From assembly GCA_026004195.1 (NCBI GenBank), contig BPIQ01000001.1, positions 1,602,311 through 1,666,310 on the forward strand: DNA of 64,000 nt. The letters are read 5' to 3'. The notes under the pieces were generated by a model, which saw only the letters and a list, made by a program, of their open reading frames with translations, was not told the origin of the DNA and ran no database searches. Both the position numbers and the translations under genes were made by a program. Shown piece by piece: positions 3,481 to 63,612 of this stretch. Every line of letters begins with the position of its first letter. Position 1 is the stretch's first letter. Source of the stretch: Candidatus Binatia bacterium. GTDB taxonomy: Bacteria; Desulfobacterota; Binatia; HRBIN30; BPIQ01.

Positions 3481-3781
3481 TCCGCACCCGAACCGAGCAC
3501 GATTTATGCCACAGGAGCCGAAAGTTTCCCATGCATCCTCGCGAAGCGCATCTGTACGCGGCCAACTGCGCACGCTCTCGTGAAGGGTCCATGGCGAGTG
3601 ACGTGAGAAGCGAGGAACGAGAAACGGTCCCCGCCACTACCGCGTGGTACGAGCGTCGAAGTCGTGACACGAGGAACATCCGAACTCGTGACGCCACGGA
3701 AGGCGCGTCGCGAGCACACGCGGAGCCCGACCGGGTCCGGTTGGCAGGCGAAAAATCCCCGGTACCCGACCGGAGTTGCCC

Positions 3782-4066
3782 TCACCGTGAGGCGCAGGGA
3801 TCGACCCAGCGCAGGCCCGGGAAACGAGCGAAGTCCGTGTCGGTCGTGTAGAGACCCAAGCGAAACCCACCCCCTCGGGTCCCGAAAGACACGCCTCCCA
3901 CCACCGGCGCGCCCGCCCGTGCACCGGCGAGTCGGTGTTATGCGCGTGCACGAGAACGCTTACGTCGGGAAGAATCACGGAGCTGTTTCGCCCACTTCGC
4001 CGAGAACGCCTCGGCCTCGAGTTCGTCCACCAGCTGGTCGAGCTTGTCGAGGTCGATCCCGGGCCG
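3782..4066 (-). pseudogene. Decayed VapBC-like toxin-antitoxin pair
   Basis: Reading minus from GTG 3978, the frame starts ILPDVSVLVHAHNTDSPVH, a typical PIN-domain N-terminus with its first acidic residue, and continues through RRWWEACLSGPEGVGFAW. It then moves directly into another frame reading YTTDTDFARFPGLRWVDP and a TGA at 3782-3784, which is a typical VapC C-terminus. The central part of a normal PIN protein of about 130 residues is missing; only about 65 remain. Just upstream (3968-4066) an overlapping frame reads RPGIDLDKLDQLVDELEAEA, like the C-terminus of a VapB-type antitoxin; no convincing antitoxin N-terminus was found. Inference: a relic produced by internal deletion, without a functional RNase. 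Confidence 0.55.
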
Positions 4067-4312
4067 TAGGCGGGAACGGCTCGAACGTAAAGTTCGACCC
4101 GAGTGTCCGCCGCGAACCGAACGCGCAGTTCGAGTGTGCGGCGGGACTTCGCGTGGCGTCCACGACGATCGCGAGGGACGTGCTCTCTCTGGTCGCGTCG
4201 AGCGAAGGCGTACGGCCGTGTGCGTCCGAGCGCGGAAAATTCGCCATAGCAGGCGGCACACCGAAAAGGTTTTTTTCTTTTACGAAAAAGCCGACGTCGA
4301 CAGCTTTGGTTC

Positions 4313-4341
4313 TTGACCTGGGAAGGAAGACGGCGTATGAG
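4313..4341 (+). promoter_or_regulatory. Candidate sigma70-type promoter of the transglycosylase gene
   Basis: TTGACC at 4313-4318 (5 of 6 to the -35 consensus) is followed after exactly 17 bases by TATGAG at 4336-4341 (4 of 6 to the -10 consensus). It sits just after an unusually A/T-rich stretch (4266-4290) and would give a leader of about 110 bases to the ATG at 4456. Found by eye. Confidence 0.4.
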
Positions 4342-4455
4342 CGCCTGGACTTCTGCTGTGTCCCAGTGGGTTGGCGAGGCAGAGGCGGATATCCGGGGCG
4401 GCTCTGGCTCTTCCCCACCCGGATGGCGTCCGAAGAAGAGGAGGGAGGAACCACC

Positions 4456-13992: not shown

Positions 13993-15345
13993 TCAGCCAC
14001 GAAGCCGGCGCACCCAGGCCCCCTGGCGCGGCGAGAACACGAACCGGGGATACTCGGCCGAGCCACCGAGGCGCGGCTCGTAGAACCTGCGATCCACCTC
14101 GGCGAGAAAGCGGGACAAGCCGTCCTCGCGGACGAGGTGGACGGTACATCCCCCGAAACCCGCGCCCGTGAGGCGTCCGCCCGGAGCGCCCGCGTCCCGT
14201 CCGATCGAAACGAGGTCGTCGAGCTCGGCCGAGCTCACCTCGTAGTCCCGCGCCAAGCTAACGTGGGATTCGTACATGAGTCGCCCGAAGGTTTCCGCGT
14301 CGCCGGCCCGAAGGCACTCTTCGGCGAGCTCCACCCGGCGCGCCTCGCGGAGCACGTGGCGCACTCTGCGCAGCAGCGGGATCTTGGCGGGGAGCTTCGC
14401 CGGGATCTCGAGACCTCGGACGACCTCCTCCGGCGTCGCGCCTGCGAGGCGCGCGATCTCGTCGAGGCCGAGCGGCGCGTCGGGAATCGCCTCCTCGAAA
14501 AAACGGACGAACTCCTCGAGGGACCAATCGGGCAAAAGCCCGGGGAGATCTCCGAGCAGGCGCGGGAACTCCCCGAGTTCGCGGCGGGCGAGAAACCCGA
14601 AGACCCGCGCGCCGACCGCGCACTCGAAGACCCGGAGATTGTACGCGTCGCGCGCAGCCCCGGATTTCTCGGCCCTCACGAGACTGTGGCAGACGACGAC
14701 GCGCACTCCGTCCGGAAAGGGCACGGGCCGGGCTCGGAGCGGGAAGAAATCGATGCGGAGCGCATGCCCCTCGCGCCCGAGAAGACTCACCGCTTGATCC
14801 ATGCCCCCGCTGCGGGTGCCCACGTAGCGCTCCGCTTCGGCGAGAAGTTCCGCGAGTCTTTCGGGCCGGGTCGCCACGCCGTGAAGCGCGAGAAAGGCGA
14901 GCCCGCTCGCCACCACGAGCGCCGAGGAAGAAGAGAGACCCGCGCCCGGCGGCACGTTCCCTTCGACCAGGTAGCGTCCCCCACGGACGGACGGGATTTC
15001 CGGGTAAAGGCCCTGGAGAGCCGCCTTGTGGTAGTTGCACCAGTCGCCGGGGGGAGACGGCGCGAGAGGAAAGACGAGCTCGTACGCCCGCGGCGGAAAA
15101 CTCGGGTCCGCGTTCGCGAGCTCGACGCGGCTCTTCTCGCGTCCCGAGGCCGCGACGAGAACCGAGCGCTCGATGGCCATGGGAAGGACGGGGAAGCCGT
15201 TGTAGTCCGTGTGTTCGCCGATCAAGTTCACCCGCCCCGGAGCCCTGGCCACGACTTCCGCAGGAACACGGAAGCGGTCGCGGAACGAGTTCAGCAGGGC
15301 GTCGAGGCGCTCCTCTTCTTCGGCGCGAGTGGCGACGCTGCTCAT
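13993..15345 (-). CDS. galK: Galactokinase
   Basis: 450 residues from ATG 15345. GHMP kinase with the galactokinase signature GRVNLIGEHTDYN at about 42-54, the ATP loop PPGAGLSSSSALVVASG near 135 and the C-terminal motif LTGAGFGGCTVHLV. Phosphorylates galactose at C1, the first Leloir step; no other Leloir gene is in this window. Length is within the usual 380-450. Divergent from the copper-radical oxidase gene, whose fungal relatives oxidise galactose, with 149 bp between starts; whether they share a substrate is open. Confidence 0.93.
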   Translation of the reverse strand: MSSVATRAEEEERLDALLNSFRDRFRVPAEVVARAPGRVNLIGEHTDYNGFPVLPMAIERSVLVAASGREKSRVELANADPSFPPRAYELVFPLAPSPPGDWCNYHKAALQGLYPEIPSVRGGRYLVEGNVPPGAGLSSSSALVVASGLAFLALHGVATRPERLAELLAEAERYVGTRSGGMDQAVSLLGREGHALRIDFFPLRARPVPFPDGVRVVVCHSLVRAEKSGAARDAYNLRVFECAVGARVFGFLARRELGEFPRLLGDLPGLLPDWSLEEFVRFFEEAIPDAPLGLDEIARLAGATPEEVVRGLEIPAKLPAKIPLLRRVRHVLREARRVELAEECLRAGDAETFGRLMYESHVSLARDYEVSSAELDDLVSIGRDAGAPGGRLTGAGFGGCTVHLVREDGLSRFLAEVDRRFYEPRLGGSAEYPRFVFSPRQGAWVRRLRG

Positions 15346-15494
15346 GGCGGAATGCCCGGCACTCCCCGGAAACGGAGCCGAACATATCGACGCCGCGGAA
15401 AAAAGGCGAACGGCGCGGCCTCCCGACGAGCCGCCGTGCGACGGAGAATTTTCCGCCTTGACGCGAAAGCCCGCGCGGACGTACGAAACCGAAC

Positions 15495-17267
15495 ATGAAA
15501 GCAAGGCGCGCCTTTCGGAGTGCTGCGGGCGCCTACCTCTCGGCGATCTGCTTTCTCTGGGTCGCGGCCGCGCAGGCGTCGGACCTCTGGATTTTCACCC
15601 GGATCGCGAAGCTCCGCGCCGGAGACGGCCCGCAGGACGACCGTGCCGTCCTCAAGGGGGTTTTCGACGTCGTGCCCCCCGACGACGGCTTCGACCCCGT
15701 GGCGCAGGGCGTCACGATCGAGCTTGCGGGACAGGCTTTTTCTTTGCCCCCCGGCGCCTTCGTTCGAGTCGGGGACCACGACCGCTGGAAGCTTCCGCGA
15801 GGCACGGGCGAGCAAGTCCGTGCGGCCGTCTTCGACCTCGAGAGAAGGCTCTTCCGTTTTCGCCTCGCCGAAATCGACCTCCCCGCCGACCTGACCGAGC
15901 CTCTTTCGCTCTCGGTCACGGTGGGCAACGACACGGGGCGCGACGCCTTCTCCTGCACGACGAAGAACGGCGTCGCCTACCGGTGCACGCAGGCCGGGAG
16001 CTGGACGGACCCCTTCGACCTTCCGCTCGTGGGAATCCACGGGGCCCTGCTGCGCACCGGGAAGGTGCTCTACTGGTCGTACCCGCAAGACGGAGTGGGC
16101 GCCGAAGCGTGGCTTTTCGATCCCTCGACGCAGGCGCTCACGGAAGTACCCGTCGACCGCGACGTTTTCTGCGGCGGGCACTCGTTCCTCGACGACGGCC
16201 GCCTTCTGGTCACGAGCGGCACGGACGACGAGTTCACGGGGGACTGCTGTGCGGGGCTCCGCGACACGCACATCTTCGACCCCGCGACCGAGACGTGGAC
16301 GCGGGTCGAGGACCTGGCCGCGGGTCGCTGGTATCCGACGAACGTGACTCTCGGCGACGGGAGGGTCCTGGTTTTCTCGGGGCTCGACGAAACGGCCGAG
16401 TCCAACCCGACCGTGGAGCTCTACACGCCGGGCTCCGGATGGTCGCTCGTCGCGGGCGCCGACCGTCACCTCGCGCTCTATCCCTTTCTCTTCCTCCTTC
16501 CGACGGGTGAGATCTTCCACGCGGGGCCCGAGGAAACCTCGGCCTGGTTCGACCCGGCCACGGCCACCTGGGCCCCCGGGCCCGTGAAGGCACGAGCGCA
16601 TTACGACGGGACGTCCGTCCTTCTTCCGGGACTCGAGCGCATTCTCGTCGCCGGCGGCGGAAAGCCAGCGGAAATTCTCGACCTGGGCGACCCTTCCCCG
16701 GTCTGGAGGGAGACGAAAAAGAGGCTGCGGCGGCCCAGGCACACGAACTCCGTCCTTCTGCCCGACGGGAACGTTCTGCTGGTCGGGGGTGGCCGCGGGA
16801 ACGTGCTCTTCCATCCCCCCACGGAGACTTGGGTCCCGCTGGCGCGGCTCGGAAAGCCGCGCCGTTACCACTCGACGGCGCTTCTTTTGCCCGACGGGCG
16901 TGTCATCGCCGCCGGGACGGACGGCAACCGGACCGCGGAGATTTTCTCCCCTCCTTACCTGTTCCGCGGCCCGAGGCCCGAAATCACGAGTGCCCCGGCG
17001 ACGATTTCCTACGGCACCGTCTTTTCCGTTTCGACCCCGGATCCGAGCCCCATCCGCCGCGTGGCGCTCGTGCGCCCGTCGGCCGTCACGCACTCTTTCA
17101 ACCAGGACCAGCGGTACGTCGAACTCTCGTTCTCGGTCGCCGGCGGAGGAATCGAGGCACAAGCACCCGCGGACGGGAACGAAGCTCCTCCCGGGTACTA
17201 TCTGCTCTTTCTGGTCGACGACCTCGGGGTTCCCTCCGAGGGCACCTTCGTTCGCCTGATCCCCTGA
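15495..17267 (+). CDS. Galactose oxidase/glyoxal oxidase-like copper-radical oxidase
   Basis: 590 residues with a signal peptide (cleavage near AQA at 25-28). A kelch-type beta-propeller occupies about 170-490 and a galactose-oxidase C-terminal Ig-like domain (DUF1929) the last about 95 residues. All mononuclear copper-radical positions can be identified by alignment to known motifs: Cys226 (VFCGGHS), Tyr280 (GRWYPTNV), Tyr458-His459 (RRYHSTA) and His533 (THSFNQDQRY). Cys226 and Tyr280 would form the thioether cofactor. Such enzymes oxidise primary alcohols or aldehydes with O2 to give H2O2. Exported; substrate undetermined (galactose, glyoxal, glycans or others). Ligand assignment is from motifs, not a computed alignment. 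Confidence 0.85.
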   Translation: MKARRAFRSAAGAYLSAICFLWVAAAQASDLWIFTRIAKLRAGDGPQDDRAVLKGVFDVVPPDDGFDPVAQGVTIELAGQAFSLPPGAFVRVGDHDRWKLPRGTGEQVRAAVFDLERRLFRFRLAEIDLPADLTEPLSLSVTVGNDTGRDAFSCTTKNGVAYRCTQAGSWTDPFDLPLVGIHGALLRTGKVLYWSYPQDGVGAEAWLFDPSTQALTEVPVDRDVFCGGHSFLDDGRLLVTSGTDDEFTGDCCAGLRDTHIFDPATETWTRVEDLAAGRWYPTNVTLGDGRVLVFSGLDETAESNPTVELYTPGSGWSLVAGADRHLALYPFLFLLPTGEIFHAGPEETSAWFDPATATWAPGPVKARAHYDGTSVLLPGLERILVAGGGKPAEILDLGDPSPVWRETKKRLRRPRHTNSVLLPDGNVLLVGGGRGNVLFHPPTETWVPLARLGKPRRYHSTALLLPDGRVIAAGTDGNRTAEIFSPPYLFRGPRPEITSAPATISYGTVFSVSTPDPSPIRRVALVRPSAVTHSFNQDQRYVELSFSVAGGGIEAQAPADGNEAPPGYYLLFLVDDLGVPSEGTFVRLIP

Positions 17268-17290
17268 AGACCCCTGCCCCCCGGCCCCCC

Positions 17291-17316
17291 GGGACGCGAC
17301 GGAGCGCGTCCCTCCG
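17291..17316 (-). repeat. Dispersed hairpin element, type A
   Basis: A perfect 8-base stem with a 6-base loop on the minus strand (GGGACGCG, loop CTCCGT, CGCGTCCC), in the 150-bp gap between the oxidase and the ketopantoate reductase-like gene. Same family as the elements near 12.1, 57.6 and 63.3 kb. Confidence 0.85.
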
Positions 17317-17417
17317 TGGGCGTGGCCGCTCGTTCCCCCGGATGTGGCGAGCCGCGCGTCCCTCCCGGGACGGGCTGGTACGAAACCCGGCCGCGTTGTA
17401 GCTAGGGGACTTGCGTC

Positions 17418-18365
17418 ATGGCCAGGCTTCTCGTCGCGGGTGCCGGGGCGCTCGGGTCCGTCTTCGGCGCTCTGCTACGCCTCCGCGGACACGAGGTCGC
17501 ACTCCTCGGGCGCAAGCCACACCTCGACGCCGTCGAACGCCAGGGACTTTTCGTCGACGGCATCTGGGGGGAGCACCGCGCGCAGGGGTTTTCCTGTTTC
17601 GCGGACCCGGGCGCGATCGACGGCGACTTCGACCTCGTGCTCGTAACCGTCAAGTCTTTCGACACCGAGAGGATCGCCGACGAAGTCGCGACGCGCCTTC
17701 GGGCGCAGGGTTTTGCCGTTTCTCTCCAGAATGGTCTCGGGAACGTCGAAACACTCGAACGCCGGTTCGGACCCGAGCGCACCCTGGGCGGGCGCGTCAT
17801 TTTCGGCGCGGAGGTCGTGAAGCCCGGGCACGTGCGCGTGACCGTCTATGCGGAGCCCGTCCTTCTCGGCGCCTGGGAACCGGGGCGCTTCCCCTCGCGG
17901 GACACTGCGGCTCGCCGGTGGGCCGAGGAGTTCGCGAAATCCGGCATCCCCTGCGAGTACACCGAGAACTTGAGGACGGCGATCTGGGCCAAGGTCTTCT
18001 ACAACGCCGCGCTCAATCCCCTGGGCGCGCTGCTCGGCGTCCCCTACGGCGCACTCGCCGAAAGCGAGGCGACGCGCGGTTTCATGGACCACGTCATCGA
18101 CGAAGCCTACGCCGTCGCCCGGGCCGAGGGCATCCCGCTACCCTGGCCGGACGCGGGCGCGTACCGGGAACTTTTCTACTCCAGGCTCGTGCCGAGCACC
18201 TACGACCACCGGTCCTCGATGCTGCAGGACCTGGAGAGAGGGCGGAGGACCGAAATCGAAGCCATCAACGGAGCGGTCTGGCGTCTCGCCGAGAGGCACG
18301 GTATGGCGGCTCCGTACAACGAAGCACTCACGAGACTCGTGCGCTACAGGGAAGGACGTCGGTGA
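17418..18365 (+). CDS. 2-Dehydropantoate 2-reductase family protein
   Basis: 315 residues from ATG 17418. N-terminal Rossmann motif GAGALGSVFG at residues 8-17, then LVTVKSFDT and SLQNGLGNVE, as in ApbA/PanE. The C-terminal helical domain has AIWAKVFYNAALNPLGALLG, containing the catalytic Lys of the family, and SSMLQDLERGRRTEIEAINGAV. Family reaction: NADPH reduction of ketopantoate to pantoate (CoA pathway); paralogues reduce other 2-keto acids, so PanE itself is not certain. Its stop overlaps the GTG of the JAMM gene, suggesting an operon through luxE. Confidence 0.87.
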   Translation: MARLLVAGAGALGSVFGALLRLRGHEVALLGRKPHLDAVERQGLFVDGIWGEHRAQGFSCFADPGAIDGDFDLVLVTVKSFDTERIADEVATRLRAQGFAVSLQNGLGNVETLERRFGPERTLGGRVIFGAEVVKPGHVRVTVYAEPVLLGAWEPGRFPSRDTAARRWAEEFAKSGIPCEYTENLRTAIWAKVFYNAALNPLGALLGVPYGALAESEATRGFMDHVIDEAYAVARAEGIPLPWPDAGAYRELFYSRLVPSTYDHRSSMLQDLERGRRTEIEAINGAVWRLAERHGMAAPYNEALTRLVRYREGRR

Positions 18366-18826
18366 AGGAACTCGTCCTCGACGAAAGCAGCCGCAGCGAA
18401 ATCGAAGAGCACGCCCGAGCCTGCTACCCCGAGGAGTGCTGCGGCATCGTCGTCGAGAAGGCCGGTCGTCTCGAGGTCGTGCGCGTCACCAACGTCCAGA
18501 ACGAGTACCACGCGAGGGACCCGGTGACCTTCCCGCGCACGGCGAGAACGGCGTACAAGATGGGGCCCGAGGCCCTACCCGTGCTACGCGACGCCGAACG
18601 GGGATCGTGCCGCATCCATGCCTTCTACCACTCGCATCCCGACCACGATGCCTACTTTTCCGCCGAGGACCGTGCCGCCGCGCTCGCGGGGTGGGACGAG
18701 CCGAGCTACCCCGACGCGGGACAGATCGTCGTCTCGGTGCGCAACGGAGAAGTGCGCGACATGAAAGCGTTCGCGTGGGACCCCGAGGCGGCCGACTTCC
18801 TGGAGATCCCCTTGCGGTGGCGCTGA
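18362..18826 (+). CDS. JAMM/Mov34 metallopeptidase (M67 family)
   Basis: 154 residues from GTG 18362, overlapping the previous stop (GTGA). The JAMM signature is complete: a Glu at 24/25 in PEECCGIV, H90-S91-H92, seven residues, S100, two residues, D103 (YHSHPDHDAYFSAED). Bacterial stand-alone members trim C-terminal extensions of ubiquitin-like sulfur carriers (MoaD, ThiS, CysO) or isopeptide bonds. No carrier gene is seen in the window, so the partner is unknown. Cytoplasmic. Confidence 0.87.
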   Translation: MKELVLDESSRSEIEEHARACYPEECCGIVVEKAGRLEVVRVTNVQNEYHARDPVTFPRTARTAYKMGPEALPVLRDAERGSCRIHAFYHSHPDHDAYFSAEDRAAALAGWDEPSYPDAGQIVVSVRNGEVRDMKAFAWDPEAADFLEIPLRWR

Positions 18827-18860
18827 GAGCGCGACCCACCCGCCGCTTCGGCCACTCCCG

Positions 18861-19922
18861 ATGAGCGTCCATGCCCTCCACGATCGCGTCCTCGCTTTTC
18901 TGCGCGCTCCCGGGGAGGACGCGTTCGACGACCTGGCCCTCGAAGTTTTCCGCCACCAGTACGAGCACGTCGAGCCCTACCGGACCTATTGCCGGAGGCG
19001 CGGGGTGGAGCCCGACGAAGTTTCGAACTGGCGGGAAATCCCGCCCGTTCCCGTCCTGGCGTTCCGCGAAGTGGAGTTCCGATGCGGTCCCGCCGAGAGG
19101 GTTTTCCGTTCGAGCGGCACGACGCGCGGACCCGACCGGCGCAGCGTCCACGCGCTCCCCGATCTCCGCCTCTACCGGACCTCCGCCGTCGAGGGGATGC
19201 GGCGTTTTCTCTTCCCGGACGTGGAACGCATTCGCATCCTTTCGCTCGTCCACTCGGTCGAAGAGCTTCCCGAATCCTCCCTCGCACAAATGGTCGCGTG
19301 GGCTCTCGAGGTCTTCGGAACCCCCGAAAGCCGAACCGTCGTGCAAGGCCGGAACCTCGACCTCGATGCGGCGGCCGAAGTCTTCCGCCTGTCCGAACGG
19401 GACGGCCAACCTCTGGCCCTCCTCGCCACGACGGCGGCGCTCGTGCGGCTTCTCGACGCTCTGGCGGAACGGCGATGGAGCTTCCGGCTTCCCCACGGAA
19501 GCCGCGTCATGGACACCGGAGGAAGCAAGGGGCTCGGGCGGCCGCGTTCCCGCAAGGGACTCCACCGTGCCGTCTGGAACGCGCTTGCCGTACCCGGCTA
19601 CTTTTTCGTGAACGAATACGGGATGTGCGAGCTTTCTTCCCAGGCATACGAGAACGTCATCGCGGCTCGGGAAGCGGGCCGCCTCGTCCACCGCACGCTC
19701 GTGACACCTCCCTGGATGCGAACACGTGTCCTCGACCCGCGCACGCTCCGGGACGTGCCTCCGGGAGAACGCGGTCTTCTCTGCCACTACGATCTCGCCA
19801 ACGCGGGCACGGTGTCGGCCGTCCTGACCGAAGACGTGGGCCGAACCCGGGACGAAGGGTTCGAGCTTCTCGGGCGCGCGTCGGACGCCGAGGTGCGGGG
19901 CTGTTCCCTCGTGTGGGCGTGA
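18861..19922 (+). CDS. LuxE-family acyl-protein synthetase-like adenylating enzyme
   Basis: 353 residues from ATG 18861. The adenylate-binding motif FRSSGTTRGP lies near residue 85; VNEYGMCELSSQAYEN near 255 matches the LuxE/PF04443 core. In luciferase operons LuxE activates fatty acids as acyl-AMP, takes them onto a Cys and passes them to LuxC; a LuxC homologue lies 8 kb downstream (27983-29323). No luxA/B or luxD is present, so light production is not implied. The final 69 bases are duplicated at 20509-20577 beside an inserted RelBE pair; this first copy keeps the gene intact. Third gene of the 17418-19922 run. Confidence 0.83.
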   Translation: MSVHALHDRVLAFLRAPGEDAFDDLALEVFRHQYEHVEPYRTYCRRRGVEPDEVSNWREIPPVPVLAFREVEFRCGPAERVFRSSGTTRGPDRRSVHALPDLRLYRTSAVEGMRRFLFPDVERIRILSLVHSVEELPESSLAQMVAWALEVFGTPESRTVVQGRNLDLDAAAEVFRLSERDGQPLALLATTAALVRLLDALAERRWSFRLPHGSRVMDTGGSKGLGRPRSRKGLHRAVWNALAVPGYFFVNEYGMCELSSQAYENVIAAREAGRLVHRTLVTPPWMRTRVLDPRTLRDVPPGERGLLCHYDLANAGTVSAVLTEDVGRTRDEGFELLGRASDAEVRGCSLVWA

Positions 19923-19945
19923 GCGCGTCCCGTTTGCAGGGCCGG
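19854..19945 (+). repeat. 92-bp direct repeat, copy 1 (end of luxE-like gene)
   Basis: Begins GAAGGGTTCGAGCTTCTCGG and covers the last 69 bases of the luxE-like gene plus 23 bases beyond. It appears base-for-base identical to 20509-20600, 655 bp away. Bases just outside differ (c versus g before, t versus c after), which fixes the limits. Confidence 0.93.
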
Positions 19946-20011
19946 TGGTAGCGGGGCTATCGAAGGACACGCCGTTCGACTTCCCCGGAGACCGCCGGTA
20001 AAGTCACGTGC

Positions 20012-20224
20012 ATGCGGAGGCACCGCGTGAAGGGCGTTCGGTTCGTCGTGAACGAACGAGGCGAAAAGACGGCGGTCGTCATCGATCTCAAGAAGCATTC
20101 CGAGGTCTGGGAGGACTTTTATGACGTGACGGTGGCGCGGGAGCGCCAGCACGAACCCCGCGAGACTCTGGCCTCGGTAAAACAAAGGCTGAGCCGGCGC
20201 CGTAAGCTGCGCCGCGATGGCTGA
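20012..20224 (+). CDS. RelB/Phd-like antitoxin (predicted)
   Basis: 70 residues from ATG 20012. VKGVRFVVNERGEKTAVVIDLKKH is typical of short antitoxins with an N-terminal strand-helix operator-binding part, and the charged C-terminal half (ETLASVKQRLSRRRKL) would wrap the toxin. The 8-base overlap with the RelE-like gene is the usual order, antitoxin first. A GTG at 20027 is an alternative start. Likely autoregulated by family analogy; no operator palindrome identified. Confidence 0.75.
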   Translation: MRRHRVKGVRFVVNERGEKTAVVIDLKKHSEVWEDFYDVTVARERQHEPRETLASVKQRLSRRRKLRRDG

Positions 20225-20477
20225 GTACGCGATAACGTTCGCGCGCTCGGCACGCCGGGAATTGGAGTCACTGGACGATCCTCTGCTTGCACGCGTCCTC
20301 GCCCGGATCGAAGGTCTCGCGAAGGAGCCGCGCCCACCCGGATCCCGCAAGCTGCGCGGAGGGCAAAACCTCTGGCGTCTTCGCGTTGGGAATTATCGTA
20401 TCGTTTATGGCATCGACGACCGGCGACGCGTGGTGGATATCGTGACGATCCGCCACCGGCGGGAAGCCTACCGCTAG
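20217..20477 (+). CDS. RelE/ParE-family toxin
   Basis: 86 residues from ATG 20217. YAITFARSARRELESLDDPL, the central RKLRGGQNLWRLRVGNYRIVYGIDD and the C-terminal VDIVTIRHRREAYR are the RelE pattern, with the basic residues used in ribosome-dependent mRNA cleavage; a ParE-type gyrase target cannot be excluded. The pair sits in a 563-bp segment (19946-20508) bounded by 92-bp direct repeats, which suggests acquisition as a unit. Confidence 0.85.
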   Translation: MAEYAITFARSARRELESLDDPLLARVLARIEGLAKEPRPPGSRKLRGGQNLWRLRVGNYRIVYGIDDRRRVVDIVTIRHRREAYR

Positions 20478-20508
20478 CGCAACCCACGACGAACCGCGAA
20501 CCACAACG

Positions 20509-20600
20509 GAAGGGTTCGAGCTTCTCGGGCGCGCGTCGGACGCCGAGGTGCGGGGCTGTTCCCTCGTGTGGGCGTGAGCGCGTCCCGTTTGCAGGGCCGG
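20509..20600 (+). repeat. 92-bp direct repeat, copy 2 (after RelBE pair)
   Basis: Second copy of 19854-19945. Here the luxE-derived 69 bases have no start and are not expressed as LuxE. It ends 40 bp before the next gene (ATG 20641). Without the 655-bp segment, luxE would run directly into that gene's leader. Confidence 0.93.
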
Positions 20601-20640
20601 CGCCGGGACGATATGGAACGCTGCCGAAAGGGGGCTCTTC

Positions 20641-21435
20641 ATGACAAGCTTCGGACCGATCGTTTCGAAAGCTACTCTCGCGTCGCTCGCCGCGGTTCTT
20701 CTCTCCGCTGTTCCGCTGGGTGCCGCTTCCCTCATGGAGACCAGGGACGAGGACGGAACGGTCCAGCGCATCTACGTCGAAGGACGGAAAATGCGGGTCC
20801 AGGAGCGCGACGGCGAGGAGTACATGCTTTTCGACCTCGAGGCCAAAAAGCTCTACGCCGTACGGCCCGCGGCGAAAGAAGCCGTCGACATGAGCGGCAT
20901 GCTCTCGGAATCCGCGGCCGCCTCGGCCACGGGCGTGCGCCTCGAACACGAGGGGCAGGGACCTTCGATCGCGGGCTACGCGACCGAACACTACCTCGCC
21001 CGCGCGGGCGAGAAAACGTGCACGGAAGAGTTCCTCTCCAGGCAAGCGGCCGAGGACCTCGGTGCGGCTCCGCTCCTCGAGGCGCTCGCTTCCCTCGGCG
21101 CGGAGGAGGACGGAGACTCGGACCCGTGCGAGCAAGCGGAGCGGGAGCTCGCAAAGCTCTACGGCGAGCACGGGATACCGCTCCGCGTCGTCGAAACCGA
21201 CGGAACGGTGAGCATGGAGGTCACGCGGATCGAAAAGAACGTGCCGGCGCCCGCGGGGGGATTCCACCTACCCGAGGGCTATCGGGTCGTGACGCTCGAT
21301 GCGGAAGTCCGGAAAGCCATGGAGGAGGCACAGAAGAGCCTCGAAGGTCTCGTGCCGCCGGAAGGAGGCGCGGGAGCCGGCGCGGAAGAGTTCCGCCGGG
21401 CGCTCGAAGAGCTGCAGAAAAAGACGGGACAGTGA
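20641..21435 (+). CDS. Secreted DUF4412-like protein
   Basis: 264 residues from ATG 20641, preceded by AAAGGGGG. A signal peptide ends near residue 29 (PLGAAS). The body has a repeating pattern of strands (RIYVEGRKMRVQERDGEEYMLFDLEAKKLYAV) like DUF4412/LolA-like lipid-binding folds; an E/A-rich helical tail follows. Periplasmic or outer-membrane associated, function unknown. It may once have followed luxE directly before the RelBE insertion. Confidence 0.6.
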   Translation: MTSFGPIVSKATLASLAAVLLSAVPLGAASLMETRDEDGTVQRIYVEGRKMRVQERDGEEYMLFDLEAKKLYAVRPAAKEAVDMSGMLSESAAASATGVRLEHEGQGPSIAGYATEHYLARAGEKTCTEEFLSRQAAEDLGAAPLLEALASLGAEEDGDSDPCEQAERELAKLYGEHGIPLRVVETDGTVSMEVTRIEKNVPAPAGGFHLPEGYRVVTLDAEVRKAMEEAQKSLEGLVPPEGGAGAGAEEFRRALEELQKKTGQ

Positions 21436-21463
21436 CGTCTCGGAAAGACTCTCGCGTCACGCT

Positions 21464-22906
21464 TCAGAAAAACGCTTCGGCGAGAAGAAAGAGCGTGTCT
21501 TCGGCGAGCCCGAACTCGGACCGGCGCGGGCCCGCGAAAAGCTGGGCCCCGAGCGTCCATTCGAGAAAGCCGAAGGGCTCGTAGCGCACCGCGGGAACGA
21601 AGGCGGCACTCGGGCCTTCCCAGTCGAAGAGCACGAAGGCGTCGAGCCCGAGAGCGAAGGTCGTCTCGTAAGCCACCTCGAGGCCGGTCTGGTGGCGCCC
21701 GAAGCTCACCACCTGGCTCCCTCCGAAACGGGCCGCCGAGGTCGGGACGACGACGAGAGTCTCGGGCGGAGCGGGTCCTGCGGGTAGGGCCGAGTGCGCG
21801 AGCGAGAACTGTGCGGGCGCGACGTCCGTGCCGTCGGCGCCCTTCGCCTCGAAAAAAGAAGCGAAGGGGCCGGCGAGCCCCCGGCCGAAACCGAGGGCGT
21901 TGCCGTTGTAGAGGTACTCGGCGAGAACGTAGAGGCCCTGCCCCAGGTCGAAGTTCCGGTCGGCCGAAAGCACGACCTGCCAGAATCCGCGCAGCCTCCC
22001 GCTCTCGGGCGAATCGAGGGGCCGGACCGAGCGCAGAGGTTCGGTGTAGGCCGCTTCCGCGCGCACGGCCACGTCGCCCAGGTTGCGAGCGACCTCGATG
22101 CCGCCGGCCGGGGCTTCCCGGAAGATCCCGCCCACGAGCGCGTAGTCCGTATCGCGAAAAAACCCGCGCAGCCTGAGCGCGTACGCCGAATCGAGAAGCG
22201 TCGCTTCCGGCACGGCCACGGCCTCGAGCGACGTGAAGCCCGTGAAGGCGAAGCGCACCGAAATTCCGTCGACGCCGGGACTCTGGTCAGCTTCGATGGC
22301 GAGGGGCGGGACGAAGGCGAGGCGGTCGAGGGGCCTCCAGAGCCGGCCCACGCCCCACGCTATGCGCTGCCGGCCTGCGACCACGTCCCACCGGTCGTCG
22401 CGATAGCGAAGGTAGGCGCGATAGAGAAGGTGACGCCAGCGGCCCCCGTCGGCGCTGCCCCCGAAATCGAAGCCGGAAATCGTCTCCTCGAGGGGAAGCG
22501 CAGCTTGCGAGCCCACGCTCGCCGCTGGATCCGCCTCGAGAGTCCGGATCGCTCCCGCGAGAAGCTCGTGGTCGTAGACGAGCACGAGCGTCCAGGTCTT
22601 CCCGGAGCGGAAGTCCCACCGGGTCCGGAGTCGCGTGAGGCTTTGCCAGACGTTCTGCTCGCCCAGAAGTCCGAAAGCAGGGCAATCGGGGAAAAGCGTC
22701 GGGAGCACACAGTCGGGCGAGGGAAGGGAGCTCGAGATCGCCCTTTCGAACGCCTGGAGGTTCGTGCCCCGAGTGGCGACGGCGACCTCCCGCAAGGACC
22801 CCGAGAGTTCGAGCTCGAAGCCGCGCCACCTGGCGACCGGCCGTGCCTCCGCGGGTCGAAGAAAGACGACGCAGCAGAGGGCGGAAAAAAGAACCCTGGC
22901 GGTCAA
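21464..22906 (-). CDS. Outer-membrane beta-barrel protein (DUF1302/porin-like)
   Basis: 480 residues from TTG 22906, which overlaps the ABC ATPase stop. The signal peptide ends near AEARPV (residue about 20). The rest alternates hydrophobic and polar residues with many aromatic girdle positions (VVAGRQRIAWGVGRLWRP, YVLAEYLYNGNALGF, FGRHQTGLEVAYETTF) and ends in Phe, as outer-membrane barrels do. It is the last gene of a five-gene operon with an ABC transporter and a LolA-like protein, so it is probably the outer-membrane component or cargo of that system. No clear ATG fits; the TTG is chosen for overlap and signal peptide. Confidence 0.72.
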   Translation of the reverse strand: MTARVLFSALCCVVFLRPAEARPVARWRGFELELSGSLREVAVATRGTNLQAFERAISSSLPSPDCVLPTLFPDCPAFGLLGEQNVWQSLTRLRTRWDFRSGKTWTLVLVYDHELLAGAIRTLEADPAASVGSQAALPLEETISGFDFGGSADGGRWRHLLYRAYLRYRDDRWDVVAGRQRIAWGVGRLWRPLDRLAFVPPLAIEADQSPGVDGISVRFAFTGFTSLEAVAVPEATLLDSAYALRLRGFFRDTDYALVGGIFREAPAGGIEVARNLGDVAVRAEAAYTEPLRSVRPLDSPESGRLRGFWQVVLSADRNFDLGQGLYVLAEYLYNGNALGFGRGLAGPFASFFEAKGADGTDVAPAQFSLAHSALPAGPAPPETLVVVPTSAARFGGSQVVSFGRHQTGLEVAYETTFALGLDAFVLFDWEGPSAAFVPAVRYEPFGFLEWTLGAQLFAGPRRSEFGLAEDTLFLLAEAFF

Positions 22907-23592
22907 GGCGAGGCTCGCGTGTCCTCGACGACTCTCCCGTCCCGCAAGCGGATCGTCCGCCGCGCTTTCCCGATGACCAGGGGATCGTGCGTCGAGAAGA
23001 GGAACGTCGTGCCGCGCGTACGGTTGATCCGTTCCATGAGCTCGAGGAGTCTCGTCGCCGTCTCCGAGTCCAGGTTCGCCGTGGGTTCGTCCGCGAGAAC
23101 CACACGCGGACCCGAAGCCATGGCCCGGGCGACGGCCACCCGCTGCTGTTCGCCGCCGCTCAGCTCGAGCGGCTTTTTGTCGGCGAGCTCGGAGAGCCCG
23201 AGCTCCGCGAGAAGCTCCATGGCCACGGCGCGTCGTCGGCGAGCCGGCACCCCCTGGAGCTCCATGACGAATTCGACGTTCTCCCGCGCCGTGAGCACGG
23301 GGATCAGGTTGTAGGACTGGAAGACGAAGCCGATCTTGTGGAGGCGGAGCCTGGCGCGCTGCGTGGGGCTCCACTCCGTGATGTCCTCGCCGTCGAAAAA
23401 AAGCCGGCCAGCGGTCGGAGAGTCGAGCGCTCCGAGCAGATTGAGGAGCGTCGTTTTCCCGGAACCGCTGGGTCCGGCGAGAGCCGAGAACTCGCCCTCC
23501 TCGAGAGAAAGCGTGACGCCGCGGAGCGCCCAGGTTTTCACGCCCCTGACGTCGTACACCTTCGTCACTTCGCGGGCTTCGAGAAGGGCCAC
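22903..23592 (-). CDS. LolD/MacB-type ABC transporter ATP-binding protein
   Basis: 229 residues from ATG 23592. Walker A AGPSGSGKTTLLNLLG near 40-54, Q-loop FVFQSYNLIPVLTA, signature LSGGEQQRVAVARAM near 142 and Walker B VVLADEPTANLDSETA, all characteristic of the LolD/FtsE/MacB subfamily, which powers FtsX-type permeases to extract lipids or proteins from the inner membrane rather than pump across it. Works with the two permeases encoded just upstream (9- and 4-bp gaps). Confidence 0.95.
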   Translation of the reverse strand: MALLEAREVTKVYDVRGVKTWALRGVTLSLEEGEFSALAGPSGSGKTTLLNLLGALDSPTAGRLFFDGEDITEWSPTQRARLRLHKIGFVFQSYNLIPVLTARENVEFVMELQGVPARRRRAVAMELLAELGLSELADKKPLELSGGEQQRVAVARAMASGPRVVLADEPTANLDSETATRLLELMERINRTRGTTFLFSTHDPLVIGKARRTIRLRDGRVVEDTRASP

Positions 23593-23601
23593 CGCGACCT
23601 C

Positions 23602-24816
23602 TCAGACCGAACGCAAGGCTTCCGCGGGTTCGAGACGGGCTGCTCTCCAGGCAGGCCAGAGGCTCGCGCCGGTGGCGCTCGCGAAAGCCAGGATCAGCGG
23701 CACGACGAAATCGTAGGCCCGCAAGAACGGGACGAGACGCGTGCCCACGCCTGCGGCCCGGAGACCTTCGGCCCACATGCCGAGGTCGATTCCTTCGTGG
23801 AACGCCGAGACCACCCAGGCCGCCGCCCCGTAGCCCGCGGCCACTCCGGCAAGCGTCAGGAGGAGCGATTCCGTCACGATCATGGCCACGAGACGTCGGG
23901 GCCGCATCCCGACCGAAAGCAGAATGCCGAACTCTCGCAAGCGTTCGTAGACGGACACGAGAAGGACGTTGGCGATGCCGAAGACCATGGCGAGAAAGAC
24001 GGCCGCGTAGACGTACCAAGCCGTCTGGTCGAAAAGCTCGACCATTTGGAGGAGCAGAGGGCGAAGTTCTCCCCATGTGCGGACCTCGACGCCTTCGCCG
24101 AGCCGCTCCTGTAACGTTCTGCGGACCCGCGGGATCCAGGATTCCCGCCGAACGAGAACCACGATTTCGGAGACGTCTCCACCGATGCCGAGGAGATCCC
24201 GCGCTTCCCCTAGGTCGAGGAAAACCGTCCCCCGGTCGAACTCGCGAGCCGGAGAGCGGAAAAGCCCCGAGATACGAAAGGCACCGCCGGTGAAGTTCCC
24301 CGCCGCGTCCTGGACCGAGAGCACGACCTTCTCGCCGACCCCCACGCGGAGTCGGCGGGCCAGAACTTCGCCGACCAGTATCTCCCCGTGCTTCCCCTCG
24401 AGGTACCGACCGGCGACGATCGAACGCGCGACGAGAGAAACCCCGGCTTCGCGACCGGGGTCGACTCCGAACACGCGCACACCGGCGCTCGCTCTCGGCG
24501 AGAAGAGGAGCCCCTCGGCCACCACCCTCGGCGCCCAGGCCCGCACTTCGGGAAGAGAGCGGAGAACCTCCCGCGCGGCCTCTCCGCCGTCCCGCAGACG
24601 GAGCTCGAGGCCGGGATTCCGGGAGTAGCCGCGGGCGTGCACCTGAAGATGCCCGACTTCGGTCGCGATGGCGTTCTCCACCATCTGGAAGACGAGACCG
24701 TTGTTGAGTGCCATGGAAAGGACGACCCCCGCCATGCCCACCGCCACGGCAGCGAAAACGATGCCGGCGCGGGCGCGGTTCCGCCACACGTTCCGCCAGG
24801 CGAGCCGCAGGAACAT
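23602..24816 (-). CDS. LolC/E-like (FtsX-domain) ABC permease
   Basis: 404 residues from ATG 24816. N-terminal helix after LAWRNVWRNRARAG, a large periplasmic domain (about 45-275) and three helices near the C-terminus (about 280-400), ending with PAWRAARLEPAEALR, the coupling motif of the FtsX/LolE family. Forms a heterodimer with the next upstream gene. The WRN...R motif at the start is also shared by that gene, showing they are paralogues. Inner membrane; cargo unknown. Confidence 0.92.
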   Translation of the reverse strand: MFLRLAWRNVWRNRARAGIVFAAVAVGMAGVVLSMALNNGLVFQMVENAIATEVGHLQVHARGYSRNPGLELRLRDGGEAAREVLRSLPEVRAWAPRVVAEGLLFSPRASAGVRVFGVDPGREAGVSLVARSIVAGRYLEGKHGEILVGEVLARRLRVGVGEKVVLSVQDAAGNFTGGAFRISGLFRSPAREFDRGTVFLDLGEARDLLGIGGDVSEIVVLVRRESWIPRVRRTLQERLGEGVEVRTWGELRPLLLQMVELFDQTAWYVYAAVFLAMVFGIANVLLVSVYERLREFGILLSVGMRPRRLVAMIVTESLLLTLAGVAAGYGAAAWVVSAFHEGIDLGMWAEGLRAAGVGTRLVPFLRAYDFVVPLILAFASATGASLWPAWRAARLEPAEALRSV

Positions 24817-24820
24817 CACC

Positions 24821-26053
24821 TCAGGGCTCCCTGAGCGCTTCCACGGGTTCCGAGCGGGCCGCACGCCAGGCGGGGTAAAGAGCCGCCAGCGTGGCGACCG
24901 CGAAAACCGTGAGTGCGGAACCGAGCGGGTTCCACGGCTTGAGCTTCCAGACGAGAACGGGCTCGAAGCCCCAGAGCTCGACCGCACCTGCCGCCGCTCC
25001 CCCGAGCGCGACGGGATGGGCGACGAAGTAAAGAACGAGTGCGATCCCTGCGGCGAGGCCGACGGCGAGGCCCAAGCCCCCGAGCACGAGCGATTCGAAA
25101 AACACGAGGGCGAAAAGCCTCCGCGGCAAAAGCCCCACCGCGAGCAGAATCCCGAATTCCCGCCGCCTTTCCAGGACCGCCATGAGGACGGTGTCGAGGA
25201 TGCCGAACGCAACCACGACGACCAGAATGACGAGCAGCATGTACATGCCGATGTCGTCGAGGAGCACGAACTGCTCCACCTCGGGCATCACCTCGTTCCA
25301 CGTGTGGACTTCCACGGCTCGGCCACGCAGCGCTTCCCGGAGAGAAGAAGCCACCCGGGGCGCGCTTTCCGCGTCTCGGGTCAGGATCGCCACTTCGTTC
25401 ACCCGGTCGCCGTAGACGAAAAACTCCTGCGCATCCGCGAGGCGCACGAACGCCGTCGAGCGGTCGGCCTCGGGTTCGGGCAGCCGGAGGATCCCGACGA
25501 CGCGGAAAAGCTCGTACGCCATCTCGAGCGAGTAGGCGACCGAAAAAAGCAGCACCTCGTCCCCCACGCCCGCTCCCAACTCCCGAGCGAGCCGCTCGGC
25601 GAGGACGATCTCCCGCCTCTCGCCCGACGCCCCGAGGAAACGGCCGTGCCGAACCCTCCTGGAAAGCGTGGAGACGTTTCCCTCGAGCACGGGATCGACA
25701 CCCACGACCGCCGCCCCTTTGGTCGAGGAGCCCTTCGAGAGAAGGCCGAAACCGAGAAGACGCGGGGCGTAACCGAGGACGCCGGGACTCTCCTCGAGAA
25801 CCCTCCGGAGCTGACCGTCGAACACCAGGAACTGCTCGAGCGTGCGGTTCTCGAGGTAGCCCTCTCCCACGATCGTCACGTGGCCCGAGCCCACCCGTAC
25901 GGCGTCTTCGATCATCTTCTCGTGGACACCGGCGGCCATGGCCACGAAAAAGACGATCAGGAGAACGGCAAAGGCCGTCGCCGCGACCGTGAGTGCCGTC
26001 CTCCGGGGCACTCTCCCCACGTTGCGCCAGGCGAGCCGGAGCGCGAGCCCCAC
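24821..26053 (-). CDS. LolC/E-like (FtsX-domain) ABC permease, paralogue
   Basis: 410 residues from GTG 26053, directly abutting the stop of the LolA-like gene. Same topology as its neighbour: helix after LAWRNVGRVPRRTA, periplasmic domain to about 275, three C-terminal helices and the tail YPAWRAARSEPVEALREP. Two different permease subunits plus one ATPase is the LolCDE arrangement; whether it moves lipoproteins, lipids or a dedicated cargo is not determined. Confidence 0.92.
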   Translation of the reverse strand: MGLALRLAWRNVGRVPRRTALTVAATAFAVLLIVFFVAMAAGVHEKMIEDAVRVGSGHVTIVGEGYLENRTLEQFLVFDGQLRRVLEESPGVLGYAPRLLGFGLLSKGSSTKGAAVVGVDPVLEGNVSTLSRRVRHGRFLGASGERREIVLAERLARELGAGVGDEVLLFSVAYSLEMAYELFRVVGILRLPEPEADRSTAFVRLADAQEFFVYGDRVNEVAILTRDAESAPRVASSLREALRGRAVEVHTWNEVMPEVEQFVLLDDIGMYMLLVILVVVVAFGILDTVLMAVLERRREFGILLAVGLLPRRLFALVFFESLVLGGLGLAVGLAAGIALVLYFVAHPVALGGAAAGAVELWGFEPVLVWKLKPWNPLGSALTVFAVATLAALYPAWRAARSEPVEALREP

Positions 26054-26863
26054 TCAGAGCCTCTCCCGCAGGTGGCGGGTCGTGAAGATCGTCTCGTCGA
26101 ATGTCTCGTCGAAGCGCACCGCCTGTACCTGGATTTCCGTCCTGTGCCCGGGCTTGTCGAGCGGCAAGACGGTCCACCGGAAGGGAAACCGCCTTCCCTC
26201 GACCTCGCGGATGTCGGAGTAGCGCAGGATCCGGAGCCGCTCGCCTTTCTCGTCGTAGAAGTCCGAGCGAATCGGCGTGAAATGCTCGGTCTCGATCCAG
26301 GTCACGATCCGTCCCCAGACGACGGGAGCTCCGGGGCGAGGAACGTACTCCACGACGTACGCCCGGAGGTCCGTGAAGCCCTCGGGGCCCGGATCGATCC
26401 CGAGAAGGCGGTGGGAGTAGTCCTCGAGCTGGCTCGATTCGCGCACGAGGTCGTCGTTCGTGAAGTCGCTGCCCATCCAGGGCTGCAGCATCATCGACGG
26501 CGGGATCCGCACCGTGCGCTCGACCCGCGGGACGTACATCCAGAGGTTCGGGTGCAGCTTCAAAAACGCCGTGCCGGCGTCCTTGGCGGGGGCGAGAATC
26601 CGGATGAAGGTTCGCTTTTTCTCGCGGTCGTCCCATGCCCGGAAGACCACGACACGCGGGGCGGGAAGCCTGGGCGAGACGATCGTCATCGTGGCTTCGA
26701 GGTAGATCGTATCGCCCCGGAGAACTTCTTCGGCACGCTCGGCCACCTCCTTTCCGTCGAGTCCCGGCGGAGGAGGAAGGAGTCGGGGAAGGGGGGACGG
26801 AACTTCGAGGGGCTTCGAAAGAAGGAAAAGCCCGAGGAGCCAGGTGCCCGGCCGTAGGCCCAT
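26054..26863 (-). CDS. Outer-membrane lipoprotein-sorting-type protein (LolA-like fold)
   Basis: 269 residues from ATG 26863. An N-terminal hydrophobic segment may be a signal peptide. The body has IYLEATMTIVSPR, FIRILAPAKDAGTAFLKLHPNLWMYVPRVERTVRIPPSMMLQPWMGSDFTNDDL and SDFYDEKGERLRILRYSDI, the pattern of the 'outer membrane lipoprotein-sorting protein' family (PF17131). Probably a periplasmic carrier that takes cargo from the permeases. First gene of the operon 26863 to 21464. Confidence 0.88.
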   Translation of the reverse strand: MGLRPGTWLLGLFLLSKPLEVPSPLPRLLPPPPGLDGKEVAERAEEVLRGDTIYLEATMTIVSPRLPAPRVVVFRAWDDREKKRTFIRILAPAKDAGTAFLKLHPNLWMYVPRVERTVRIPPSMMLQPWMGSDFTNDDLVRESSQLEDYSHRLLGIDPGPEGFTDLRAYVVEYVPRPGAPVVWGRIVTWIETEHFTPIRSDFYDEKGERLRILRYSDIREVEGRRFPFRWTVLPLDKPGHRTEIQVQAVRFDETFDETIFTTRHLRERL

Positions 26864-26954
26864 GAACGGCAGGGCTACAACGTCGGTTCCGGGCGATGCA
26901 AGCGTCCCGAACTCGAATGCCGCGCGGAAAGAAGCGTGCCCGGCACGTGCCCGG

Positions 26955-27845
26955 TCACGCTGCCCCGCGCGTGAGCCGCTCGAGCGCCTCCCGGTACTTC
27001 GCGGCCGTCTGCTGGACGATGTCCGGGGGAAGTTCCGGGGCGGGAGGCTTGTGGTCCCAGCCGATCGAATCCAGATAGTCCCGAACGAACTGCTTGTCGA
27101 AGCTCGGCTGCGGACGTCCGGGCTCGTAGGTGTCCTTGGCCCAGAAACGGGAGGAGTCCGGCGTGAGGAGCTCGTCGATCAGCACGAGCTCGCCGTCCAC
27201 GAGCCCGAACTCGAACTTCGTGTCCGCGATGATGAGCCCGCGCGACTCCGCCCAGCGTGCCGCCGCGGCGTAAATCTCGAGGCTCCGCCTCCGCACCTGC
27301 TCGGCGAGCTCCCGCCCGAGGATTGCCGCCGCCTCGTCGAACGAGATGTTCTCGTCGTGCTGGCCCTGCGGAGCTTTGGTCGAAGGCGTGAAGATGGGTT
27401 CCGGGAGCCTCTCGCTTTCCCTGAGCCCTTTCGGGAGACGAATCCCGCAGACCTCGCCCGTCCTCTGGTAGTCCTTCCAACCCGAACCCGAGAGGTAGCC
27501 GCGAACGATCGCTTCGACCTTCAGCGGTCTCGCCTTCCGCACGACGACCGCCCTGCCCTCGAGCTGGGCGCGCGCCTCGGGGTCCGGAACGACCCTCTCG
27601 AGCGGCTCGTCGAGGAGATGGTTCGGGAGGATCGACGACGTCCTCGCGAACCAGAAGTTCGAAAGCTGCGTGAGAATCCGTCCTTTTTCCGGAATGGGAG
27701 TCGGGAGAACGACGTCGAAGGCGGAAATCCGGTCGGTCGCCACGATGAGCAGCCGGTCTCCCAGGTCGTAAACGTCGCGCACCTTGCCCCGAAAAAGCAG
27801 GGGCAGGGAAGGAATGTCCGACGAAAAAAGCGCCCTGGGCTGCAT
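26955..27845 (-). CDS. purC: Phosphoribosylaminoimidazole-succinocarboxamide synthase
   Basis: 296 residues from ATG 27845. SAICAR synthetase motifs: [30 protein letters not shown] at the N-terminus, [17 protein letters not shown], the loop HDENISF and [25 protein letters not shown]. Couples CAIR and aspartate with ATP in purine synthesis. Belongs to the longer (about 295-residue) bacterial/yeast-like form. No other pur gene nearby. Divergent from the luxC-like gene. Confidence 0.96.
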
Positions 27846-57563: not shown

Positions 57564-57577
57564 AGGCACGGGCGGCC

Positions 57578-57730
57578 GGAGGGACGCGCTCCGTCGCGTC
57601 CGGGGAGCGGAGGGACGCGCTCCGTCGCGTCCCGGGGGACGGGGGGAACGCGCCACCCATGAACAACGACCCGACAGAGCGGATCCCCCGATGCGCCCGC
57701 GACCCCCGCCGGAGGGACGCCCTCCGAAAG
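57578..57730. repeat. Cluster of dispersed hairpin elements
   Basis: Two type A copies on the plus strand (57578 and 57609, the second with an 8-base stem), a degenerate type B copy on the minus strand (about 57667-57690) and a truncated type A copy at about 57711. They fill most of the 232-bp gap between the LLM gene and the first secreted paralogue. Confidence 0.85.
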
Positions 57731-63123: not shown

Positions 63124-63210
63124 AGAACCTTTATCGGAGACGGTGCGGCGAAGTGTCAAGCGGTTTCTGGCCCGTGCCCCGCATGGCGTTCGATGCACCG
63201 CGCGCGCCTC

Positions 63211-63612
63211 GGAGGGACGCGCTCCGTCGCGTCCGGGGGGATGCGCAATCCACGCGGCCGTTTGCGTTCGAGCACCGACGTTCGCGCCATGCGCGAACGC
63301 GGCCACCCGGAGGGACGCGCTCCGTCGCGTCCGGGGGTGGTGGGGCGGACGCGCCACGTACGAACAAGGACCCGACAGAGTGGGTCCCTCCGATTGCGTG
63401 CCGGGGGCGGGCGCCGTGCCACGCATGAACACGCACCCACGCGGAGGGACGCGCTCCGTCGCGTCCGCGGGTGGGGGGATCATGTCCACGCGGGGGCGGA
63501 CGGAGGTGCCATGCACGACCAAGGACCCGACAGAGCGGGTCCCTCCGATCGCGTCCCGGGGGCGGGCGCCGTGCCACGCATGAACACGCACCCACCCGGA
63601 GGGACGCGGGGT
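63211..63612. repeat. Alternating array of dispersed hairpin elements
   Basis: Type A hairpins on the plus strand at 63211, 63309, 63443 and 63598 (truncated), with type B hairpins on the minus strand at 63368 and 63523 between them. Two A-to-B-to-A modules share not only the hairpins but also the spacer text (63392-63440 closely matches 63547-63595, offset 155), so a unit has been duplicated. The rest of 63124-63785, the gap after the LpoA-like gene, shows no gene. Confidence 0.88.

Follow-up and report, generated by a model that had tools for sequence, protein, structure and literature searches.

Integrative elements that target tRNA genes or other gene ends restore the gene end on which they insert and leave direct repeats on both sides. 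Long target duplications of variable length have been reported for the insertion of restriction-modification genes (Nobusato et al., 2000, as cited; PMC3874152, PMC1643837, PMC3031569), and one account gives them as 'in the order of 100 bp' (PMC3874152). Gene ends have also been seen to be duplicated by recombination: in E. coli conjugation experiments with linearised plasmids homologous to the lacZ end, 56 of 60 Lac- clones gave a PCR product of a partial duplication of that end, and the 14 duplications that were sequenced, 109–950 bp long, were ascribed to a single crossover, true illegitimate events being rare (PMC3240628). As for toxin-antitoxin (TA) systems, it has been suggested that chromosomal ones may counteract large deletions and that gene transfer may benefit from post-segregational killing (PMC2654758, PMC3031569), with the remark in one of them that the same hindrance to deletion or advantage in transfer could hold for TA systems (PMC3031569). 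The excerpts available of these sources and related literature call TA systems mobile and do not ascribe a long-repeat footprint to them (PMC3874152, PMC2654758), and within a partial coverage of the literature no title or opening of an abstract was found that reports a TA system with such a footprint. The open question addressed here is by what means chromosomal TA modules move when no mobile element carries them.

The locus that we describe lies in a 64,000-nucleotide stretch of the genome of a Candidatus Binatia bacterium, hereafter the window. When the window is compared with itself, the maximal exact direct repeat is 92 bp long, with copies at 19854–19945 and 20509–20600 on the forward strand (655 bp from start to start) and a 563-bp insert between them (19946–20508); apart from a tandem array at 1–1630, the window has no other exact direct repeat of more than 40 bp. 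Copy 1 consists of the last 69 bp of a luxE-like acyl-protein synthetase gene (18861–19922, forward strand; PF04443, 64.9 bits) and the 23 bp that follow. The C-terminus encoded by copy 1 is in line with the end conserved among five aligned orthologues, which makes copy 1 the intact gene end and copy 2 an orphan, a non-coding segment that turns up as a second short match of the luxE-like protein in its own genome. The anatomy put forward in the original prediction, exact 92-bp repeats of the luxE end plus 23 bp with only the first copy in an intact gene, is thus borne out both by the self-match and by the orthologues. The inferred empty site would have as its downstream neighbour a DUF4412 gene (20641–21435, forward strand; PF14371, 30.1 bits).

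The insert carries a pair of open frames on the forward strand, a putative antitoxin gene (20012–20224) and a toxin gene (20217–20477), which overlap by 8 bases and leave margins of 66 bp before the antitoxin ATG and 31 bp after the toxin stop. The toxin matches PF05016 with 53.3 bits and the PHROG family 'RelE-like toxin' at 5.9e-21, resembles by sequence solved RelE-like toxins (best 8.6e-9), and scores 19.4 bits against NCBIfam RelE/StbE, under the cut-off of 27.9. For the antitoxin, profile and PHROG searches matched no family with an E-value of 0.001 or lower. A related pair at locus L036 has a toxin 65% identical to that of the window, with one internal stop, and a partner 70% identical to the window antitoxin over 64 residues; the antitoxin start may be the GTG at 20027, where the L036 relative starts. 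Judged by sequence, then, the pair is probably a type II TA module in which a RelE-family toxin is preceded by an overlapping antitoxin gene, and the RelBE pair originally named between the repeats stands as regards the RelE-like toxin and its overlapping partner, while RelB itself was not identified and the start given for it may have to move. A scan of the contig database with the window toxin returned no relative.

Little in or around the insert points to a mobility enzyme of its own. Its GC content is 63.4% against 67.9% for the window, and 1.9% of windows are equally low. A transposon was considered and rejected, as the insert lacks terminal inverted repeats (3 of 20 terminal positions match) and no transposase was found among the proteins scanned; indeed, no integrase, transposase or recombinase was matched among the neighbouring proteins scanned at 13993–27845, where one long frame matched nothing. 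There is no tRNA in 15000–27000, no Rfam match in 19300–21300, and no promoter or terminator was returned by a scan of 19800–20700. Two further features were set aside: a hairpin in the 92-bp repeat, which folds no better than shuffles (z -0.21), and a likeness immediately upstream of the two copies, where 14 of 30 positions match in register (P 0.028), which is not convincing. The 874-bp stretch at 19827–20700 matches itself only in its own genome (3.63 Mb, 6 contigs; 40 of 58 first-look candidates scored). Relatives of the luxE-like gene occur in 50 of 58 genomes (its own included) and at 9 further contig-database loci, at identities of up to about 58%, its own gene excepted; the nearest genomes compared share only the order with that of the window. 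At none of the 29 luxE-relative loci compared (L003–L031, about 1.5 kb or less on each side) was there a panE-, JAB-, TA- or DUF4412-like neighbour.

Repetitive DNA of other kinds was also encountered in this genome. The tandem array at 1–1630 is nearly exact, with units of ~486 bp, and begins at the window edge; a PIN toxin locus, L308 (G000:C1:1601534-1601887), lies just upstream of it in the genome. A dispersed palindromic REP-like element with the core GGACGCGACGGAGCGCGTCC is present at 17286–17316, 57576–57632 and 63210–63467 of the window and is common in further stretches of the genome too (L100, L105, L106, L108).

The original prediction had suggested a search for other TA modules flanked by long direct repeats, and such modules were found. 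RelE/ParE toxin loci were collected from the same class, and each was compared with itself; the exploratory set comprised 103 unique loci from 75 genomes, 10 of these loci having one flank shorter than 1 kb. After this exploration the criterion was fixed as a repeat of 50–400 bp with at least 84% identity and a spacing of 350–2000, bracketing the toxin within 1.5 kb and with at most 6 self-hits, and it was then run on all 103 exploratory loci, 40 new RelE/ParE loci and 84 PIN loci, the loci being part of the match lists (30 and 40 for RelE/ParE; 30, 14 from the window's own genome and 40 for PIN). Repeats bracket 14 of the 227 unique RelE/ParE or PIN loci (6 of 103 exploratory, 3 of 40 new RelE/ParE and 5 of 84 PIN), as against 3 of 1560 random windows, at two places in 40 stretches of 20 kb, and none of 70 loci of a glyoxalase-family control (30 loci and 40 from lower in the match list). 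Fisher's test gives P values of 9e-11 against the random windows and 0.02 against the glyoxalase control for all 227 loci, and of 1e-7 and 0.03 for the 124 new loci alone, although adjoining random windows share flanks, so that 1560 is not the number of independent trials.

In 8 of the 14 bracketed loci what is duplicated is the terminus of the gene beside the TA module, in each case next to an intact copy of that gene. In seven it is the 3' end: of the luxE-like gene in the window, a SIS-domain gene (L148, genome G061), a gene for a radical SAM protein with a SEC-C end (L171, genome G144), a sodium:solute symporter gene (L287), a DUF421 gene (L283), a NIPSNAP gene (L327) and a DUF4440/SnoaL-like gene (L256); in the eighth it is the start of a Cas6-N-domain gene (L251). 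At L147 a PIN module is bracketed by a gene-end repeat like these eight, the gene having no Pfam match, and at L141 another PIN module is bracketed by a 61-bp repeat; both were met off-centre, so that L147 is not among the 14 and L141 enters neither count. The remaining 6 of the 14 are of other kinds: a gene end plus 163 bp whose repeat is nevertheless dispersed in its genome (L138), an 89-bp repeat at tRNA-Thr (L109), an intergenic repeat (L085), transposase-like copies, named by eye (L301), a repeat away from any gene end (L260), and a 55-bp internal fragment, not a terminus, of a glyoxalase-family gene (L303). The last of these is a second candidate in the window's own genome (1432–1485 and 2525–2579 of L303), where a PIN module lies beside the glyoxalase-family gene and the 55-bp orphan fragment overlaps the PIN gene in its final codons.

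A number of other repeat-bearing loci were discarded: what looks by eye like a diversity-generating retroelement (L110), internal protein repeats (L117), a repeat array under the identity cut (L123/L052), a tandem copy of a TA locus (L079), a repeat in an integrase-like C-terminus, by eye, just under the identity cut (L153), two further loci under that cut (L158 and L075), one in an array (L315) and one whose repeat brackets no TA module (L272). At L110 an avd-like gene, again named by eye, lies between 87%-identical repeats (3412–4450; G007:C7). The one random-stretch bracket that was examined, L183 (17409–19049, genome G126), once more involves a gene end: a DUF4143-type ATPase gene is bracketed by a 70-bp duplicated gene end, with 5 of 6 differences at third positions.

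If an orphan end were a plain duplicate left to decay, its differences from the intact end should be spread with little regard for codon position. Pooled over the eight loci that show differences (L148, L171, L147, L287, L283, L327, L256 and L251), third codon positions account for 55 of the 82 differences between an intact end and its orphan, a share that exceeds the ~45% expected under duplication followed by decay (P 5e-5, with sites taken as independent) and equals that among functional orthologues, for which the G061 gene end was compared with six congeners (90 of 134, six comparisons sharing one sequence). Orphan ends therefore often look like a second allele rather than a decayed target duplication, although the excess is not significant in L287 (6 of 13), L283 (2 of 4) or L171 (4 of 6; P 0.1) taken singly. 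At the seven 3'-end loci with differences the repeat stops between -16 and +11 bp from the stop codon, as is expected where the intergenic sequence differs between alleles. Tree tests were applied to L148 in G061: sisterhood of the intact and orphan ends is rejected by the AU test (P 0.04, 0.009) and not by the SH test (P 0.08, 0.05). In the best tree, from 197 bp, the intact end joins G059/G038 and the orphan branches off outside them, whereas the G061 gene body falls outside (G031,(G059,G038)), so that the intact end beside the TA module looks donor-derived and the orphan native; the assignment is a weak one, given the 197 bp, the SH result and the fact that G059/G038 are the nearest sequences to the orphan as well (91.9 and 92.9%). 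In the window the two copies are identical and offer no differences to such a comparison, and either the event was recent or the donor very close; a plain duplication would fit as well.

Occupied and empty versions of some of these sites can be compared across genomes. Second copies of the SIS gene end are confined to G061 among 7 genomes of the genus, and the tail-to-tail site behind that gene is a hotspot (L113, L148, L203), with TA-like modules in 3 of 7 congeners and none in the other 4. The site is empty in G059, G038, G024 and G060, where the SIS gene and a second gene meet tail to tail. Besides its RelE-type module and the orphan end, G061 has a gene for a MazF/PemK-type toxin there, together with additional genes; G031 has an antitoxin remnant and another pair that by eye is TA-like; and G058 has a RelE-type module of ~615 bp between the two tail-to-tail genes, with 2–4 bp lost and no duplication. 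For L171 the long second end copy is found in G144 alone among 4 genomes, two of which, G143 and G142, are undecided because of a contig end or truncated match, and in the congener G015 the site retains the remnant of an antitoxin but no orphan. Since G058 and G015 carry a TA module or remnant without an orphan, TA insertion and the repeat are separable; modules can be gained at such sites without any repeat arising, the orphan belonging to some events only, which speaks against target duplication as an obligatory step. The original prediction had named a same-site module in relatives lacking the repeats as an observation that would count against it, and G058 provides just that, at another locus than the window's.

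How, then, might the repeats have arisen? The best explanation, to which we would give an even chance, is that additive homologous recombination, with the end of the neighbouring gene as its anchor, brought the TA module into the chromosome, and that addiction hinders its subsequent loss. The donor fragment would comprise the end of the gene and the TA module, and it could enter in one of two ways, either circularised and then integrated by one crossover, or as a linear fragment with homology on one side and illegitimate joining on the other (homology-facilitated illegitimate recombination). The product would run from the intact gene, with its donor-derived end, through the TA module and the displaced gene end to the original downstream sequence. 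Such a product is a short direct-repeat merodiploid and should be lost again via recombination between the repeats; this same recombination would also remove the TA module, and a toxin acting on cells that lose the module would keep the structure in place. Retention by addiction would explain why such repeats are commoner at addiction modules than at control genes. The repeat anatomy, its recurrence and enrichment and, in pooled form, the allele-like ends of comparable loci are observed, whereas the route, the donor and the stabilisation by addiction are what we infer, and there are points on the other side: TA genes are more accessory than those of the glyoxalase control, and the regions in which TA loci lie could simply be more plastic; modules or remnants stand without an orphan end in G058 and G015; the SH test fails to reject sisterhood in G061, and three of the loci taken alone are not significant; and six of the bracketed loci belong to other kinds. 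An alternative that we find possible but doubtful is a long target duplication proper, in which a staggered or replication-derived break took up the 563-bp cassette and the recipient's 92 bp were copied twice. The identity of the window copies and their abrupt ends on both sides favour it, as does a length that fits the figure for restriction-modification genes (PMC3874152); the pooled allele-like divergence of the copies in comparable loci, the AU rejection of sisterhood in the one case tested (G061) and the insertion without duplication at the same site in G058 speak against it. Of the insertion by tandem duplication or strand invasion originally proposed, strand invasion fits best, whereas a duplication of the target caused by the insertion itself is not supported as a general rule.

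Three further readings carry less weight. It is improbable that the insert is the remnant of an integrative element whose attL and attR lay in the gene end and whose integrase was lost, leaving the TA module: L109, where a weak Phage_integrase match (21.5 bits, curated cut-off 27.1) lies between the repeat copies at tRNA-Thr, and the repeat of L153 in what by eye is an integrase-like C-terminus speak for it; against it, neither an integrase match nor a tRNA nor terminal inverted repeats occur in or near the 563-bp insert, and the genes whose ends are used differ in family among the eight terminus cases. Slightly less probable again is a TA module that was an old resident, beside which the 92-bp orphan landed later as an unrelated dispersed copy, by template switching; the orphan-free sites of G058 and G015 agree with it, whereas the far higher frequency of bracketing repeats at TA loci than in random windows or at control loci does not. 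A metagenomic assembly artefact we consider the least probable of all. The repeat is exact and about as long as the k-mers that assemblers commonly use, which is a reason to think of it, but it lies on a 1.70-Mb contig in a 6-contig genome, bracketing is enriched at TA loci, and L148 comes from a one-contig genome (contamination estimate 8%).

The feature in the window is real, and the recurrence of the bracketing makes TA gain without a dedicated recombinase plausible, as does the absence of a nearby integrase, transposase or tRNA in the ranges searched; in this respect the spread of TA modules without an integrase, as first suggested, has support. The mechanism in the window itself is unproven. 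More broadly, it is tempting to speculate, and we do so tentatively, that ordinary homologous recombination at neighbouring gene ends carries type II TA modules along as passengers and so spreads them among chromosomes, that addiction traps the resulting short-repeat merodiploids, of which orphan ends are the fossils, and that this route is common to TA and restriction-modification genes and needs no dedicated mobility enzyme. A recurrent footprint and a recombination route shared with restriction-modification genes would help to explain the patchy spread of TA modules, an orphan gene terminus beside a module would serve as a sequence signature of recent acquisitions, and the stabilisation of unstable duplications by addiction becomes a directly testable idea.

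Unlike integrative elements that target tRNA genes or gene ends, the loci described here have no integrase and no common target gene, and the insert is under 1 kb. The duplications that arise by homology-facilitated illegitimate recombination or single crossover are alike in that a duplicated gene end flanks inserted DNA, with homology on one side (PMC3240628, PMC3784515); they differ in being laboratory events for which the accessible parts of these sources describe no link to TA. The stabilising role of TA modules and post-segregational killing shares with our proposal the notion that addiction hinders deletion or favours transfer (PMC2654758, PMC3031569), whereas the published cases, in the passages available, concern large regions, superintegrons or IS-linked movement, and here short-repeat duplications surround the module itself. 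The closest known system is the insertion of restriction-modification genes with long target duplications, and the idea is to that extent not wholly new: in both, an addiction-type gene pair without a transposase is flanked by direct repeats of ~100 bp and variable length. What sets the present loci apart is that they hold type II TA modules, with RelE/ParE or PIN toxins, in another bacterial class, that gene termini are duplicated, and that the copies, when pooled, differ from one another as alleles do.
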